A stretch of DNA of 41,655 bases from Methylococcaceae bacterium (GTDB lineage: Bacteria > Pseudomonadota > Gammaproteobacteria > Methylococcales > Methylomonadaceae): positions 1 through 41,655 of the forward strand of contig CANNKG010000025.1 of NCBI GenBank assembly GCA_947505105.1. The letters run 5' to 3'. Below are positions 9,854 to 25,866 of the stretch, piece by piece. The notes beneath the pieces are model-generated. The model ran no database searches. It saw nothing but the letters and a program-made list of their open reading frames with translations, and was not told the origin of the DNA. A program made the position numbers and the translations under genes. Every line of letters starts with the position of its first letter. Position 1 is the stretch's first letter.

Positions 9854-10068
9854 CTACTTTTGAGCCGTCATTTTTAGGAAAATTTTTCGAGATACTTGTT
9901 TAGTCGTTTGATATAAGCAAAAATGCTGCATTTCTTTTTTAGCTAATGCCAATACCAATTTTGCATTTTGCATTTTGCATTTTGCATTTTGCATTTTGCA
10001 TTTTGCATTTTGCATTTTGCATTTTGCATTTTGCATTTTGCATTTTGCATTAAGTAAATCAGACTCAC
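9854..10068 (-). pseudogene. HEPN (HepT-like) toxin gene remnant, disrupted by a 7-bp repeat and truncated
   Basis: A GTG at 10068 overlaps the MNT stop by 4 bp, exactly as in the intact pair at 16966. The sequence then reads SLIYL before entering 13 copies of TGCAAAA. Downstream, in another frame, NAKLVLALAKKEMQH matches NAKLVLDLAKKEMRH of the intact toxin. From the GTG the present repeat number runs out of frame and stops at a TAG shortly after the repeat. Adding one unit or removing two would restore the frame. Even then homology ends after about 15 residues and the frame stops near 9854, without the RX4HXY motif. So the toxin is dead whatever the repeat count. Confidence 0.75.
9959..10049. 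repeat. Heptanucleotide tandem repeat, 13 x TTTTGCA
   Basis: Thirteen perfect head-to-tail copies of the 7-mer TTTTGCA (TGCAAAA on the minus strand) run from 9959 to 10049, flanked by a partial unit. The unit length is not a multiple of 3, so copy-number change shifts reading frame. In frame, it encodes a 7-residue repeat (NAKCKMQ). The matching place in the intact toxin gene (about 16920-16935) carries only one unit-like sequence. Confidence 0.97.
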
Positions 10069-17856: not shown

Positions 17857-20538
17857 ATGGGTCCACATTATCTAAATCGTTTTTTCACCCCCAAATCTGT
17901 TGCGATCGTCGGCGCTTCCGAACGTGAAACCAGTGTCGGCTATCGCTTGATGCTGAATATGCTGGAAGCCAAATTTAAAGGGGGGCTCTACCCGGTCAAT
18001 AACAAACGCGCCGAAATTCTCGGTTTGCCAGCATTTCCGGACTTAAACAGCGTTCCCGACGACATTGATCTGGTGGTTATTTCAACACCTGCCGCAACCG
18101 TCCCAGCCGTTATGCGCCAATGCGGTGAAAAAGGCGTCACCTCTGTCATTATTATTACCGCTGGCTTTGGTGAATTAGGCGAAGAAGGTCGGCATCTGCA
18201 ACAGGAAGTGCTCGATATTGCTCACCGTTACGGGATTCGGATTATTGGCCCGAATTGCTTAGGGGTTGCCAGACCCGGCGCATTTTTTAATGCGACTTTC
18301 GGCGACGGCACTATCAAAGACGGTAATCTTGCGCTGCTTTCTCAGTCTGGCGCGGTATGTACCGCGATTTTGGACTGGGCAAAATCGCAAGACATCGGCT
18401 TTTCTAGCGTCGTGTCAATGGGCGGCGCCGCGGATATTGATTTCGGCGAAGTCCTCGATTATCTTGCCACCGATAGCAAAACCAGCGGTATATTAATGTA
18501 TGTCGAGGGGATTCGTGACGCTCGCCGTTTTTTGAGCGGTCTGAAAGCTGCCGCACGCTTAAAGCCGGTGATATTAATTAAATCGGGTCGTCATGAAGCC
18601 GGTTGTAAGGCCGCGATGTCGCATACCGGCGCTTTGGTCGGCGGGGATAACGTCTTTGATGCCGCCATTGAAAGAGCGGGGGTGGTGCGCGTATATAACA
18701 TTGCTGAATTATTTTCAGCGGCACGAGTGCTCGCCAATAATTATGTCGTGAAAAAAGACCGCCTCGCCATCATTACTAATGCCGGGGGACCTGGGGTTAT
18801 GAGTACCGACCGGGCTGAAGATGTCGGCATTCAGATGGCCGAACTGAGCCCCGAAAGCATTGAGGAACTTAATAAAGTCCTGCCAAAGCATTGGTCTCAC
18901 TCCAATCCGATTGATATTCTAGGAGACGCCACCTCCGAACGCTATCAACAAGCCTTGGAAGTCTGTTTAAAAGACAAAAATATTGACGGGGTACTCGCTA
19001 TTTTAACGCCGCAAGCGATGACCAATCCTACTCAGGTGGCCCAATGCTTGATCGATGCCGCCAAAACTAGCAACAAGCCGGTGCTTGCGTCATGGACCGG
19101 AGGCGCTCGCGTTCAGGAAGGCCGAAATCTTCTCGATAATAGCAAAGTCGCGCATTTTAATACTCCGGAAACGGCGGTCGATGCCTTTTCATTTTTGGCA
19201 AAATATACCCAGAACCAAATTCTGTTGAAGCAAATTCCTTCTCCGTCGAAAGAGCTCTCCGCGCCGGATGTCACCGGCGCGCGCCTGATCATTGAACAAA
19301 TTCTATCCGAAGGGCGTCAGGTGTTGACCACTCAGGAATCCAAAGCCATTTTGGCGGCGTTTCATATTCCGGTGAATCATACGATTCAGGTCGCCAATGC
19401 CAAAGAAGCGATGATCGCAGGAGAAACCTTAGGCTTCCCGGTGGTCTTAAAAGTCAATATGGCAGAATTCAGCCATAAATCCGATATCGGTGGTGTGCGT
19501 TTGAACATTAATAGTGTTCAGGAAGTTTCGCGTAATTTCGTCGAGATGGAAACTGCTATCAAGTTAAAACACCCCGAAGTAAGGACGGTGTTTATGACCG
19601 TTGAACCGATGTTTAAAACCCCGAGCGGACGCGAGTTGATGATTGGTGTGGTCAGAGATCCGGTTTTTGGTCCTGCGATCAGTTTCGGCTTGGGCGGCAC
19701 CATGGTCGAAATTCTGCATGATAATGCGGTCGCCTTGCCACCACTCAATGCTTATATGGTTGAGGAAATGATCGCCAAAACCAAAGCCGCTCGCTATTTG
19801 AAGGCATTCAGACAACTGCCTGAAGCCAACAAAAAAGCCTTGGTTGAAACCTTACTCAATGTGTCAACCATGGTCAGCGAACTGCCGGAAATTATGGAAC
19901 TTGACATTAATCCGTTGATCGTCGATTCAAAAGGCGTCATGGCGGTCGATGCCCGCATTAAGGCCCAAGTATCGCATCAGATTACCCCATATGCGCACAT
20001 GGCGATTCATCCTTATCCACATGAATTGATTCAACATTATCAATTACCTAACGGCGTCAATATCACCATTCGACCGATTCGCCCAGAAGATGCCGATATG
20101 GAAAAAGATTTTGTGCATCGTTTGTCAGAACGCACCAAGTATTTTCGCTTTATGCAGGCGCTACAGGAATTGACACCCGAAATGATTGTGCGTTTTACCC
20201 AGATCGATTACGACCGCGAAATGGCTTTCGTGGCGATCAGCGATAATAATGATTTACCGAACGAAATGGGCGTATGCCGGTACATGATGAATCCAGACGG
20301 ACATTCCGCCGAATTCGCTTTGGTAGTCTCCGATGATTGTCAGGGAATGGGCATTGGTTCACGCCTGATGCGTACCTTGATGCAAACCGCCAAAAACCGA
20401 GGTATCTCAGTGTTTGAAGGCGAAGTGCTCGCGATTAACAAGCCAATGTTATCGTTAGTAAGCAAATTAGGCTTTTCTATCGAAACCTTAGACCAAGATC
20501 ATGAGATTGTCCGCGTGATCAAAAACCTAAGGGATTAA
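17857..20538 (+). CDS. pat: PatZ/YfiQ-type protein lysine acetyltransferase (acyl-CoA synthetase-like + GNAT)
   Basis: The protein has 893 residues, close to E. coli PatZ. In order: CoA-binding Rossmann domain (about 5-100, SVAIVGASER), two succinyl-CoA-ligase-like flavodoxin domains, an ATP-grasp domain (about 490-700) and a C-terminal GNAT domain (about 740-890) with the acetyl-CoA loop QGMGIGSRL near 829. PatZ enzymes acetylate acetyl-CoA synthetase and other proteins using acetyl-CoA. The histidine of SHTGA, at residue 256, is kept at the place of the phosphohistidine of ADP-forming acetyl-CoA synthetases. ATG at 17857 with GGA upstream is chosen. An open frame back to 17617 is only fossil sequence. 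ppdK follows in the same direction. Confidence 0.9.
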   Translation: MGPHYLNRFFTPKSVAIVGASERETSVGYRLMLNMLEAKFKGGLYPVNNKRAEILGLPAFPDLNSVPDDIDLVVISTPAATVPAVMRQCGEKGVTSVIIITAGFGELGEEGRHLQQEVLDIAHRYGIRIIGPNCLGVARPGAFFNATFGDGTIKDGNLALLSQSGAVCTAILDWAKSQDIGFSSVVSMGGAADIDFGEVLDYLATDSKTSGILMYVEGIRDARRFLSGLKAAARLKPVILIKSGRHEAGCKAAMSHTGALVGGDNVFDAAIERAGVVRVYNIAELFSAARVLANNYVVKKDRLAIITNAGGPGVMSTDRAEDVGIQMAELSPESIEELNKVLPKHWSHSNPIDILGDATSERYQQALEVCLKDKNIDGVLAILTPQAMTNPTQVAQCLIDAAKTSNKPVLASWTGGARVQEGRNLLDNSKVAHFNTPETAVDAFSFLAKYTQNQILLKQIPSPSKELSAPDVTGARLIIEQILSEGRQVLTTQESKAILAAFHIPVNHTIQVANAKEAMIAGETLGFPVVLKVNMAEFSHKSDIGGVRLNINSVQEVSRNFVEMETAIKLKHPEVRTVFMTVEPMFKTPSGRELMIGVVRDPVFGPAISFGLGGTMVEILHDNAVALPPLNAYMVEEMIAKTKAARYLKAFRQLPEANKKALVETLLNVSTMVSELPEIMELDINPLIVDSKGVMAVDARIKAQVSHQITPYAHMAIHPYPHELIQHYQLPNGVNITIRPIRPEDADMEKDFVHRLSERTKYFRFMQALQELTPEMIVRFTQIDYDREMAFVAISDNNDLPNEMGVCRYMMNPDGHSAEFALVVSDDCQGMGIGSRLMRTLMQTAKNRGISVFEGEVLAINKPMLSLVSKLGFSIETLDQDHEIVRVIKNLRD

Positions 20539-21095: not shown

Positions 21096-23861
21096 ATGAG
21101 TCATCAATATACTTATTCATTCAAAGATGGTAACGGTAAAGACAAGCAACTGTTAGGCGGCAAAGGGGCCAATTTATGCGAAATGACCCAAATCGGCCTA
21201 AACGTGCCTCCCGGCTTTGTCATTACCACCAAAACCTGTCTGACGTATTTGGAAAATCAAAAATTACCGGATGGGTTACTGGATGAAGTTAAACAACAAA
21301 TAGCCGAAATCGAAAAAGCCAGTGGCAAAACTTTCGGCAGCAATGAGAATCCGCTGTTAGTTTCAGTTCGTTCAGGATCGGCTATTTCGATGCCCGGCAT
21401 GATGGACACGATTTTAAACTTAGGCCTCAATAAACAAACCTTGAACGGCCTGATTCAACAAACCGATGACCCACGTTTTGCCTATGATGCTTATCGACGT
21501 TTTATTCAGTTATTCGGCAAGATTGCGCTCGGCGTTGATGACGCTAAATTCGACGCCCATTTTGAAGAAGTGAAACAACAAGCCGGCATCAAAGCTGATG
21601 TTGCTTTAGATGCTCAGCACCTGTGCGATATCAGCGAACGTTTTTTACAAGTCGTGCTTGAAGCCACCGGTCGGCCATTTCCGGAGGACGTGTACGAACA
21701 ATTGGAGTTGTCGATCAAAGCCGTCTTTAATTCATGGACCGGCAAACGAGCGATTGATTATCGCCGCGAATTCCATATTACACCTCAAATGGCCAATGGC
21801 ACCGCAGTTAACATCGTGATGATGGTATTCGGCAACATGGGTAACGATTGCGCAACCGGCGTCGGTTTCACACGCAATCCCGGCACCGGCGTTAACGAAA
21901 TGTATGGTGAATATCTGGTCAATGCCCAAGGGGAAGATGTCGTGGCCGGGATCCGCACCCCAAAACCGGTTCACGAACTGGCCCAAGAAATGCCGTTCTT
22001 GTATAAACAATTGGTCGAACTGCGCAATAAACTCGAAGCTCACTACAGGGAAGTTCAGGACTACGAATATACGATCGAAAATGGGATTTTGTATTGCCTG
22101 CAAACCCGCAACGGCAAAATGAACGCCACCGCGATGGTCAAAACTTCGGTCGATATGGTCAACGAAGGCTTGATTACCAAAGCTCAGGCCTTACTTAGAA
22201 TCAGCCCCGACTCATTAGAGCAATTGCTCCATCCACAACTCGACCCTCATCATAAAACCCCGGCATTAGCGCGCGGTCTTCCGGCTTCACCAGGAGCTGC
22301 CAGCGGCATCGCGGTGTTTGATGCCGATACCGCCGAACGTCTTGGCCGAGCCGGCGAAAAAGTCATTCTGATTCGCGAAGAAACCAAACCGGAGGATATT
22401 CACGGCTTTTTTGCCTCTCAAGGTATTTTGACCAGTCGGGGCGGAAAAACCTCACATGCCGCCGTGGTCGCTCGCGGCATGGGCAAGGCCTGCGTAGCGG
22501 GTGCCGAAGCAATTCAAATCGATGCCAAAGGACGACTCGCTATTATTGGTGACATACATATTCGCGAAGGAGACTGGTTAACGCTGGATGGCAGTAGCGG
22601 TGATATTTATTTCGGTAAAATTGCAACGATTGCGACTTCATTTTCCAGTGAATTGAAAATCTTACTGAGTTGGGCTGATGAAATCGCCGAATTGTTGGTT
22701 TACGCCAATGTTGACACCCCTGAAACAGCAAGGCTTGCGATGAGCTATGGCGCCAAAGGGATCGGCTTGTGCCGAACTGAACGTATGTTCAATGCGACGG
22801 ATCGCTTGCCGATCGTGATCGATATGATTATTGCCAATACCCCTGAACAGCGCCAAGTTGCGCTGGATAAATTATTTCCGATTCAACGGGATGACTTTAA
22901 GGCGATTTTCGAAGCCATGTCGCCCTACCCGGTCACAATTCGCCTGCTCGACCCGCCGATGCATGAATTTTTACCGAGCGAAAGTCAATTACAAGAAGAA
23001 ATCGACGCACTCCAGCATTATGTCACGATCGTCAGGGGTCAACGCATCACACTGGAATCGATTACCCATGATGAACAATTGCCGCGACCATTCAATTTGT
23101 TAAATGAAGAAGTCATTTACGAAGCGATCAACAAAAAAACTCACATGCTCAAAAAGGTGAAAGAGCTTTATGAGGTCAATCCGATGTTAGGACATCGCGG
23201 TGTGCGTTTAGGCATCAGTCATCCCGAAATCTACAAAATGCAGATGCATGCGATTTTAGATGCGGCAGCGCTCTGTAATAAACAACGTATGGAATGCGTC
23301 CCTGAAATTATGGTGCCGCAAGTGATTACCGCTGCTGAATTAAAACGCATCAAACACATGCTGCATGAAGTGCAAGCCGAAGTTGAAAGCCATCATGGCA
23401 TAAAACTGAAATATAAATTCGGCACGATGATCGAAACGGTACGTGCGTGTATCCGTTCGGCGCAACTGGCGGAAGATGCGGAATTTTTCTCGTTCGGCAC
23501 CAATGATTTAACGCAAGCGACCTTTTCGTTTTCCAGAGAAGACGCTGAAAATAAATTTTTACCGCTGTATAACCAGACTGATCTGCTCCATGATAATCCC
23601 TTCGAAGTCCTCGATATTAAGGGCGTTGGTCAATTGATGAAAATGACGGCTGAATTAGGTCGGAAAACGCGTCCTGATCTTAAAATTGGTATCTGCGGCG
23701 AACAAGGGGGACACCCAACCTCGATTAATTTCTGCCAGGAAATCAAATTATCCTATGTGTCTTGCTCCGCGTTGCGGATTCCGATTGCCCGACTTGCCGT
23801 CGCGCAAGCCAAATTGATCGAAATGAATACGCAATCTACTGCCGGTACTCAAAACCTCTAA
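21096..23861 (+). CDS. ppdK: Pyruvate, phosphate dikinase
   Basis: The protein has 921 residues, slightly longer than the 874-residue Clostridium symbiosum enzyme. The N-terminal ATP-grasp domain begins KQLLGGKGANLCEM. The swivelling phosphohistidine domain has GGKTSHAAVVARGMG with His454. The C-terminal TIM-barrel PEP/pyruvate domain has FGTNDLTQ and ends with GGHPTSINFC, with Cys880 as the likely proton donor. It interconverts pyruvate, ATP and Pi with PEP, AMP and PPi in the cytoplasm. With a PPi-dependent glycolysis it can run toward pyruvate, which would fit a methanotroph-like metabolism, but this is inference. AAGGAG lies 6 nt upstream of the start. Downstream lies the DnaA-box array. 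Confidence 0.97.
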   Translation: MSHQYTYSFKDGNGKDKQLLGGKGANLCEMTQIGLNVPPGFVITTKTCLTYLENQKLPDGLLDEVKQQIAEIEKASGKTFGSNENPLLVSVRSGSAISMPGMMDTILNLGLNKQTLNGLIQQTDDPRFAYDAYRRFIQLFGKIALGVDDAKFDAHFEEVKQQAGIKADVALDAQHLCDISERFLQVVLEATGRPFPEDVYEQLELSIKAVFNSWTGKRAIDYRREFHITPQMANGTAVNIVMMVFGNMGNDCATGVGFTRNPGTGVNEMYGEYLVNAQGEDVVAGIRTPKPVHELAQEMPFLYKQLVELRNKLEAHYREVQDYEYTIENGILYCLQTRNGKMNATAMVKTSVDMVNEGLITKAQALLRISPDSLEQLLHPQLDPHHKTPALARGLPASPGAASGIAVFDADTAERLGRAGEKVILIREETKPEDIHGFFASQGILTSRGGKTSHAAVVARGMGKACVAGAEAIQIDAKGRLAIIGDIHIREGDWLTLDGSSGDIYFGKIATIATSFSSELKILLSWADEIAELLVYANVDTPETARLAMSYGAKGIGLCRTERMFNATDRLPIVIDMIIANTPEQRQVALDKLFPIQRDDFKAIFEAMSPYPVTIRLLDPPMHEFLPSESQLQEEIDALQHYVTIVRGQRITLESITHDEQLPRPFNLLNEEVIYEAINKKTHMLKKVKELYEVNPMLGHRGVRLGISHPEIYKMQMHAILDAAALCNKQRMECVPEIMVPQVITAAELKRIKHMLHEVQAEVESHHGIKLKYKFGTMIETVRACIRSAQLAEDAEFFSFGTNDLTQATFSFSREDAENKFLPLYNQTDLLHDNPFEVLDIKGVGQLMKMTAELGRKTRPDLKIGICGEQGGHPTSINFCQEIKLSYVSCSALRIPIARLAVAQAKLIEMNTQSTAGTQNL

Positions 23862-23917: not shown

Positions 23918-25289
23918 TTATCCACAAAAACTGTGGATAAGTATGTGTATAACACCTGATTAACCTCGCCAATACCTCGTTATTTGTAGTCCTCACGAAA
24001 ATTGTCGAAATTTTACACAACCCACTTATTAATAAAAAAACAATACCTTATAGCAAAATATTCAGCGATTTTAATTCCTTGATTAGCCCAAAATCAGGCA
24101 TTTTTAGCTGATATCTAAAAATGTGTATAAGTTGAACTGAAGTTCAAATTTTGAACATAAATGTTCGACCACCAATTCGAAAATCAACAATCAATCACCT
24201 ACACAAGTTTTCCACATATTCTGTGGATAAGTTTGTGTATAACGCCTTTTTAACTACGCCAATACCTTGTTATTTATGGCGCTGACTTAGATTGTCGAAA
24301 GTTTATACAACCCAAGTATAATTTTAAAAATCAATATGTTACATATATTAATTCAATGCTTTTAACTCCTTGATTAACTCAAAATCAGGCACTTGTATCT
24401 GATATCTAAAAATGTGGATAAGTTAAATTGAATTCCAAATTTTGAACATCAATGCTCGACCGCCCATTCGAAAATCAACAATCAATCACCTACATAAGTT
24501 TTCCACATATTCTGTGGATAAGTTTGTGTATAACGCCTTTTTAAATACGCCAATAGCTTGTTATTTATGGCACTGACTTAGATTGTCGAAATTTTATACA
24601 ATCTAATTATCCATTTAAAAATCAATATGTTATATATATTAATTCAATGCTTTTAACTCCTTGATTAACTCAAAATCAGGCACTTGTATCTGATATCTAA
24701 AAATGTGGATAAGTTGAAATGAATTCCAAATTTTGAACATCAATGCTCGACCGCCCATTCGAAAATCAACAATCAATCACCTACATAAGTTTTCCACATA
24801 TTCTGTGGATAAGTCTGTGCATAACACCTTTTTAACTGCGCCAATACCTTGTTATTTATAGGCCTGACTCAAATTGTCGCAATTTTACACAACATAAAAT
24901 ATCCTTATAAATTAATAATTTAAATTTACTCCACCTACTTTTTAGCAATAGCATAAAGTCATCAATCACGAAATTTTCACTTATTTGGCAAATGTGTATA
25001 AGTCAAAATTCGTCCAAAATTTTAGTATTGATGACTTGACTTTTAATCTGCCAATCAACAATCAATCACCTACAAAGTTTTCCACAAATTCTGTGGATAA
25101 GTCTGTGCATAAACACTTTTTAAGCACAGCCAAGCCTTATGATTTAAGGCGGTGACTTAGATTGTAGTTTTTTCAAACATATTTATTAGCTATTGATAAT
25201 CAACCAGTTACAAACATGCATCCACAGGTTCAGGCGAATTCTCTGAAAAAATTTTTATATGGAGTCGATACTTTTAACCATGTGTATAA
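23918..25289. repeat. DnaA-box array in about 290-bp tandem repeats: candidate replication origin or DnaA-titration locus
   Basis: Twenty-two sites match TTWTNCACA on either strand. Five triplets, at 23918, 24208, 24499, 24790 and 25078, each hold an inward pair (TTWTCCACA, 5 nt, TGTGGATAA) followed 3 nt later by TGTGTATAA or TGTGCATAA. Single boxes recur at 24122, 24413, 24704 and 24993. TTTTACACA occurs at 24011 and 24883, and a last box is at 25281. The spacing between repeats is 288-291 bp and the text between is also conserved. The first triplet forms a perfect 15-bp stem (23912-23946). The whole 1.5-kb gap (23862-25359) has no gene. There is only one GATC, so a Dam/SeqA-type E. coli oriC layout is absent. 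No dnaA, gidA or rnpA lies nearby. Confidence 0.85.
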
Positions 25290-25359: not shown

Positions 25360-25866
25360 ATGCCTTTTTTTATCTGTCTCAATTTAGTACTCAGTTATCT
25401 GATACAGAGTCACAGCCCTTATCAGGCGTTCTTTTTATCGGCATGGGGTAATTATCTGGGGATTTGCTGCATGACCCTCAGCGTACTTGCCATGCTGACT
25501 TATAAACTGAACTTGTCATTGCGTTATGATTTATTTTGTTGCGGAAGTGTTTTAACTTGGCTGAGCACTTGGCCGAGCTATTTCAATGAAGACTCACCGG
25601 TGATTTTCTTTTATCCGATTTATTTTTGCTTAATTACGGTCTTTATCACGGTAGGCTTTATCCAACAGGCTCAAAAAATCGATTCACTGTCGCTGACCTT
25701 TATGTACAAATTTAATAATGCCAAGTTATTTAATCCCTATTTATTAATGGGCATTGTGGTTTTCGCCTTAAATTACATCGAGAATTATTTATTCTATCCA
25801 ACGGTCATGACGGTGTTGCTGGCAAAATATGCCTTCTCCAGCATACTGGAAGCTAACCAAGCCTAA
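25360..25866 (+). CDS. Small hydrophobic membrane protein of unknown function
   Basis: The protein has 168 residues with about four to five predicted membrane helices (LSYLIQ to FLSAW, YLGICCMTLSVLAML, VIFFYPIYFCLITVFITVGF, LLMGIVVFALNYI and a last one). I recognise no family. It has no visible ribosome site before ATG 25360. It begins about 70 bp after the last DnaA box and is followed after 46 bp by the helicase gene in the same direction. The composition resembles a genuine inner-membrane protein rather than a chance frame. Confidence 0.6.
   Translation: MPFFICLNLVLSYLIQSHSPYQAFFLSAWGNYLGICCMTLSVLAMLTYKLNLSLRYDLFCCGSVLTWLSTWPSYFNEDSPVIFFYPIYFCLITVFITVGFIQQAQKIDSLSLTFMYKFNNAKLFNPYLLMGIVVFALNYIENYLFYPTVMTVLLAKYAFSSILEANQA

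Follow-up and report, generated by a model that had tools for sequence, protein, structure and literature searches.

Clusters of DnaA boxes outside oriC exist in B. subtilis and Streptomyces. A DARS element is intergenic, lies between oriC and terC and stimulates the release of ADP from ADP-DnaA; the DARS2 subtype needs, to be active, an IHF site downstream of its core and also a Fis site. In E. coli, the timing of initiation is set by one DARS1 and one DARS2 element, with DARS2 oversupply leading to extra initiations, and both share a core of three DnaA boxes with equal spacing, in which box I is opposite to boxes II and III (passages of PMC5742627). The ADP-DnaA molecules on boxes I and II make head-to-head contact; ADP release, which IHF and Fis promote at DARS2, yields apo-DnaA, which dissociates and takes up ATP (passages of PMC4245941, PMC8682772, PMC5742627 and PMC10380432). 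In the K-12 sequence, the boxes of DARS1 (bioD-uvrB, L195:5108) and of DARS2 (rppH-mutH, L196:4136) lie at offsets 0, 14 and 26, box I again facing the other two, and this triplet is, by eye, what the two printed homologies of a DARS2 core deletion enclose (in part of PMC4585315).

The locus considered here lies in a window of 41,655 nt (the whole stretch of DNA that was analysed) from a host assembly of 5.1 Mb in 307 contigs. The host is probably a methanotroph, since it encodes a PmoA/AmoA-family protein (PF02461, E 1.5e-130). A first-pass annotation of the window had reported a dense array of DnaA boxes, and its count of 22 TTWTNCACA sites between 23918 and 25289 is confirmed, as are the arrangement in five phased units, the triplet starts at 23918, 24208, 24499, 24790 and 25078, the gaps of exactly 5 and 3 nt, and the single boxes recurring in mid-unit, found as reverse boxes at 24122, 24413, 24704, 24993 and 25281. 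Successive units are spaced by 290, 291, 291 and 288 bp. The window as a whole holds 29 such sites against 5.4 expected, a number that none of 100 shuffles reaches. Judged by sequence, the locus quite probably consists of five DARS2-like elements in tandem that reactivate DnaA; its features are as follows.

21096–23861, + strand: ppdK, pyruvate phosphate dikinase, upstream neighbour
23918–23952, + strand: DARS-type core of unit 1, boxes I/II/III with 0/0/0 mismatches to TTWTNCACA at offsets 0/14/26
24004–24018, + strand: Fis-like site of unit 1 at +86, 1 mismatch
24011–24019, + strand: extra DnaA box of unit 1 at +93, overlapping the Fis-like site
24038–24050, − strand: IHF-like site of unit 1 at +120, 1 mismatch
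24072–24084, + strand: second IHF consensus of unit 1 at +154, exact, with counterparts at 24363–24375 (unit 2) and 24654–24666 (unit 3)
24122–24130, − strand: distal DnaA box of unit 1 at +204, TTWTNCACA match
24208–24242, + strand: DARS-type core of unit 2, three-box geometry
24294–24308, + strand: Fis-like site of unit 2 at +86, 1 mismatch
24329–24341, − strand: IHF consensus of unit 2 at +121, exact
24413–24421, − strand: distal DnaA box of unit 2 at +205, TTWTNCACA match
24499–24533, + strand: DARS-type core of unit 3, three-box geometry
24585–24599, + strand: Fis-like site of unit 3 at +86, 1 mismatch
24620–24632, − strand: IHF consensus of unit 3 at +121, exact
24704–24712, − strand: distal DnaA box of unit 3 at +205, TTWTNCACA match
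24790–24824, + strand: DARS-type core of unit 4, three-box geometry
24883–24891, + strand: extra DnaA box of unit 4 at +93, TTWTNCACA match
24910–24922, − strand: IHF-like site of unit 4 at +120, 1 mismatch
24993–25001, − strand: distal DnaA box of unit 4 at +203, TTWTNCACA match
25078–25112, + strand: DARS-type core of unit 5, three-box geometry
25198–25210, − strand: IHF consensus of unit 5 at +120, exact
25281–25289, − strand: distal DnaA box of unit 5 at +203, TTWTNCACA match
25360–25866, + strand: 168-aa gene downstream of the array, whose relatives mark the orthologous locus elsewhere

Each unit starts with box I in forward orientation, 5 nt, box II in reverse, 3 nt and box III in reverse, followed later by one reverse box at +203-205, so that the three boxes, the opposite box I and the spacing of DARS1 and DARS2 are present in all five; the distal reverse box is likewise exact in 5/5 units. 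As sequence matches, a downstream IHF-like site occurs at +120/121 with at most one mismatch in every unit (1, 0, 0, 1 and 0 mismatches in units 1-5, exact in three), and a Fis-like site at +86 in three of the five (1, 1, 1, 2 and 3 mismatches). The intergenic region holds 13 IHF sites with at most one mismatch against 3.95 per shuffle (largest shuffle 9), and six exact ones against 0.2 expected, although these are repeat copies and hence not independent; taken alone, the window's one-mismatch IHF sites are weak. Two exact Fis matches fall in the array, at 24123 and 24142 (1.0 expected), neither of them at +86. One-mismatch IHF-like sites also lie 18-19 bp ahead of cores 2-5 (24189, 24480, 24771 and 25060), and an IHF-like site ahead of the core is seen with several single modules in relatives. 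The description of the locus as five repeats stands as to the five phased units, but these differ in likeness: units 1-4 share 65-96% identity in pairs, whereas unit 5 shares 47-55% with the others. At 10.5 bp per turn, the 290-bp unit is no whole number of helical turns.

The array occupies the 1498-bp intergenic region between the end of ppdK (23861) and the start of the 168-aa gene (25360), and no window ORF of at least 100 aa covers it. Among 84 loci compared for box density, 80 of them ppdK relatives, L031, with 5 boxes per kb, is the only one to reach even 4; the window has 17. The product of the 168-aa gene, the membrane nature of which is judged by eye only, had no family match in Pfam or NCBIfam above the applied thresholds. 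A structured RNA was considered and rejected, as the three Rfam matches were to microRNA families, all far below gathering scores, and lay on the palindromic boxes of unit 1. Elsewhere in the window, at 9958-10051, there is a perfect 7-bp tandem repeat (ATTTTGC, 13.4 copies).

That the array is a chromosomal replication origin, one of the readings offered by the first-pass annotation, is suggested by its dense DnaA boxes and AT-rich DNA (31.7% GC in the intergenic region against 42.9% for the window), but GC skew argues so strongly against it that we consider it almost certainly wrong. For the host, within the window, no cumulative minimum lies at the array: in 2-kb bins, skew is negative in all but one of 21 (18001-20000), and so on both sides of the array. 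The orthologous locus can be recognised through the 168-aa gene in two relatives with near-complete chromosomes, G029 and G030, and their skew minima lie elsewhere. In G029, the sampled cumulative minimum is at 1.34-1.56 Mb (nearly flat to 2.0 Mb), an interval that includes dnaA (1.46 Mb), and the orthologous locus, at 0.556 Mb, is 0.90 Mb from dnaA. In G030, the sampled minimum is at 3.20-3.44 Mb and dnaA at 3.66 Mb, with the orthologous locus, at 4.12 Mb, 0.80 Mb from the middle of the minimum interval. A third relative, G026, has a broader sampled minimum at about 0.7-1.5 Mb, dnaA at 1.28 Mb and no core at the orthologous locus. The relatives' skew was sampled as 20 stretches of 20 kb per genome, which makes the minima coarse, with the locus still well away from them.

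The host's dnaA, correctly stated to be absent from the window, was found on another contig, C21. Among the dnaA loci of 10 genomes (L105-L114, 3.2 kb each), those of the host, G029 and G030 hold no DnaA box within one mismatch, and that of G026 holds eight between dnaA and dnaN. A near lack of GATC had also been advanced against an E. coli-style oriC; the site is scarce in the intergenic region (1 against 3.2 in shuffles), but 3.4% of 500 shuffles have none at all, and GATC avoidance was dropped as too weak a signal.

Instead, the sequence evidence favours a region that controls the timing of replication. The host encodes all of DnaA, Hda, IhfA and a Fis homologue, IHF and Fis being the partner proteins of DARS2; its IhfA scores over the cut-off and its Fis homologue is 48% identical to E. 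coli Fis. Fis homologues were found in 7/8 genomes searched, G002 being the one without. HU/IHF-like matches number 12 in the host against 1-6 in five relatives searched. From the E. coli precedent we infer that the array would reactivate DnaA as DARS2 does: ADP-DnaA would bind boxes I and II head to head, bending of the DNA by IHF (and Fis) would lead to the release of ADP, and apo-DnaA would leave and bind ATP, raising ATP-DnaA ahead of the next initiation. Five copies would concentrate this capacity in one place, and the 22 boxes would also hold part of the cell's DnaA, titration being a likely side effect.

Titration could also be the whole function, the array delaying initiation as a pure DnaA sink with no nucleotide exchange. 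The earlier claim of a strong DnaA-binding locus is supported, as a prediction from the box array. In favour of a sink, this one locus holds 22 of the 439 TTWTNCACA sites found across the 5.1 Mb of the assembly, every counted box matches the consensus, and the window boxes are closer to it than those of the E. coli cores, which could favour the holding of DnaA. A sink, however, requires neither a fixed 5/3 geometry nor position-locked Fis and IHF sites nor single-copy modules across a whole class, and the comparative data below make this reading improbable.

With the two gaps left free (0-16/0-16 nt), 28 of 91 family genomes yielded a total of 43 matches, and in 39 the gaps were exactly 5 and 3 nt; the other four comprise two of 5/1, each overlapping a 5/3 match at the same place, one of 4/3, and one of 8/3 with dnaN in its flank. 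The host is itself counted within these 91 genomes, and within the 274 and 299 discussed below. For the family, class and phylum module counts, cores were accepted with at most three mismatches in total and at most two in any box, identical 50-bp keys being removed. The 65 family cores so defined, which still include a few overlapping reverse-strand pseudo-cores, have the exact reverse IHF consensus at +117-124 in 33 cases; if one mismatch is allowed, 46 have it. When the two arrays (that of the window and one in a congener) are set aside, the exact IHF consensus at +117-124 is found in only 26 of 56 cores, the same kind of pseudo-cores included, and the Fis consensus, within one mismatch, at exactly +86 in 42 of the 56, against a mean over offsets of 0.77. 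Some of these family modules are from genomes of one genus, so they are not independent. The octamer TTARATTG stands at exactly +79 in 33 of the 65 cores, and with one mismatch in 18 more; this position-locked motif (+79 to +86) overlaps the start of the Fis-like site.

The module also recurs across the class. The class search pattern comprised box II, a partial box III and the IHF site, but neither box I nor the distal box, and matched 68/274 genomes, with 84 matches listed (three of them units of the window); 206/274 genomes had no match to it. Match length was 116-122 in 80 of the 84 listed, where 103-133 was allowed, i.e. 7 of 31 lengths. Though absent from the pattern, box I was found exactly at -14 from box II in 23 of the 30 class loci read, with two matches two nt off and none at 20 other offsets tested. 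The same 30 loci hold 17 exact reverse boxes at +200-209 against five elsewhere between +40 and +330, and 20 of their 30 modules have the Fis consensus (at most one mismatch) at +86, where the mean over offsets is 0.43. No dnaA, rpmH, rnpA or mnmG was found in their flanks (about 1.5 kb). A phylum-wide draw gave matches in 37/299 genomes, 12 of them outside the class. Box I was within one mismatch in only six of the 11 phylum modules read (10 loci), and the distal box was present in five, which means that some pattern matches are incomplete modules; three of the misses belong to one genus. Class and phylum counts are, on the other hand, too low, because both patterns require TGTGGATA and an exact IHF core; the controls, in which the pattern was reversed, gave 0 in every row.

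In two genomes of the phylum draw (L292 and L293), the module lies between bioD and uvrB, the site of DARS1, with IHF at +121. By its geometry, its partner sites and this location in some genomes, the module is, as a sequence element, of DARS type. In G032, an element (L100:2234-3495) lies between uvrB and the 168-aa gene, which may link it to the uvrB-linked DARS1, although DARS1 is found on the opposite side of that gene. The eight placed elements of G029 and G030, four weaker G030 matches being left out, lie at 0.31-0.69 of the half-chromosome, where the E. coli values are 0.41 for DARS2 and 0.66 for DARS1; the orthologous locus is mid-arm in both relatives, and the host assembly is in 307 contigs.

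A further reading, in which DnaA regulates the downstream 168-aa gene from the array, draws on the last box, which ends 70 bp ahead of the start codon, and on the 11 of 20 orthologous loci read that carry a core upstream of this gene, at a loose threshold (box I of L099 has three mismatches). The other nine loci have no core, relatives carry single modules elsewhere in their genomes, and the module also stands beside unrelated genes, among them priA (L120, L126, L128, L131 and L242), hrpA (L119, with like-sized neighbours in L127 and L134), a HhH-GPD glycosylase gene (L121), ssb, and uvrB (class locus L259). We therefore regard promoter control as the main function as very doubtful. Genes of replication and repair recur among the neighbours at nine loci (the priA loci, L115, L121, L259 and L228), namely priA, ssb, the HhH-GPD glycosylase gene, uvrB and a YoaA-type helicase gene.

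Tandem copies are not confined to the window. The proposal that related genomes be searched for the repeat at this site was borne out by a congener, G001, where the same locus holds four 322-bp units. The host has, besides its five units, one more core upstream of an ssb gene; in G003, three cores fall within about 0.8 kb, elsewhere on the contig that holds its orthologue, with the YoaA-type helicase gene about 1.1 kb beyond the cluster; and G002 has none upstream of its orthologue, with others elsewhere in the genome. Cores also come in pairs, 200-465 bp apart, in G016, G026, G029 and G030, and in G543 from the phylum draw. Unit identity is 47-96% within the host array and 63-82% within that of the congener, but 45-54% between the two, a pattern that fits separate amplification or homogenisation.

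The first-pass annotation considered the repeat architecture to be undescribed. This does not apply to the triplet, as it is the DARS core, and DARS-like sequences have already been stated to occur in many proteobacteria (in part of PMC10380432); it may apply to the tandem arrangement, of which searches of open-licence PubMed Central, itself a part of the whole literature, turned up no report. A chromosome with five DARS-like units raises the question of how the cell tolerates such dosage. Speculatively, DARS copy number may be an evolvable dial, with some methanotrophs having concentrated reactivation in tandem DnaA-Fis-IHF-DnaA modules, amplified separately at the same locus and acting as a single centre that activates and titrates DnaA cooperatively and switches more sharply than scattered single DARS sites; we hold this to be possible, with the odds somewhat against it. 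The module also provides a sequence definition (core, +86, +120, +204) for seeking DARS-type sites across the Gammaproteobacteria, making DnaA recharging testable far outside E. coli.

Among the known elements, the locus had been likened to a datA-like sink, which names the right kind of locus but the wrong member. The array shares with datA the clustering of DnaA boxes with an IHF site, and its IHF-like sites have DnaA boxes on both sides as in datA, which would suit an element for IHF-driven hydrolysis of ATP-DnaA (DDAH). Against this, no DARS triplet was found in the 13-kb E. coli datA stretch, datA boxes are spaced and oriented otherwise, their arrangement around the IHF site is not that of the array, and the module is present at bioD-uvrB loci; datA was rejected on this geometry, and a datA-like role is very unlikely, if marginally less so than promoter control. 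With DARS1, the units share an identical core geometry, and DARS1 has AATTG at +82 where many modules have RATTG. DARS1 is, in contrast, a single element of 101 bp (in part of PMC5742627), and the K-12 copy has no IHF-like site within one mismatch, unlike the bioD-uvrB loci of the phylum draw.

The closest likeness is to DARS2, the core offsets and orientation of which are identical to those of the array units, its core being followed downstream by an IHF-like site in matching orientation, by Fis-like sites and by one more consensus DnaA box (passages of PMC4245941 and PMC8682772). Where E. coli has one element, the array has five; the single exact Fis match of E. coli DARS2 is at +145, after its IHF-like site, whereas the Fis-like sites of the array precede theirs; and the E. 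coli consensus box at +211 is in the opposite orientation to the distal box of the array. The IHF-like site of E. coli DARS2 is at +109, and those of the array units, at +120/121, are about 11 bp farther out, or about one helical turn; in E. coli, DARS2 kept moderate activity when its IHF site was shifted 10 bp from the core, and a shift of 5 bp was only partially effective (in part of PMC4245941).
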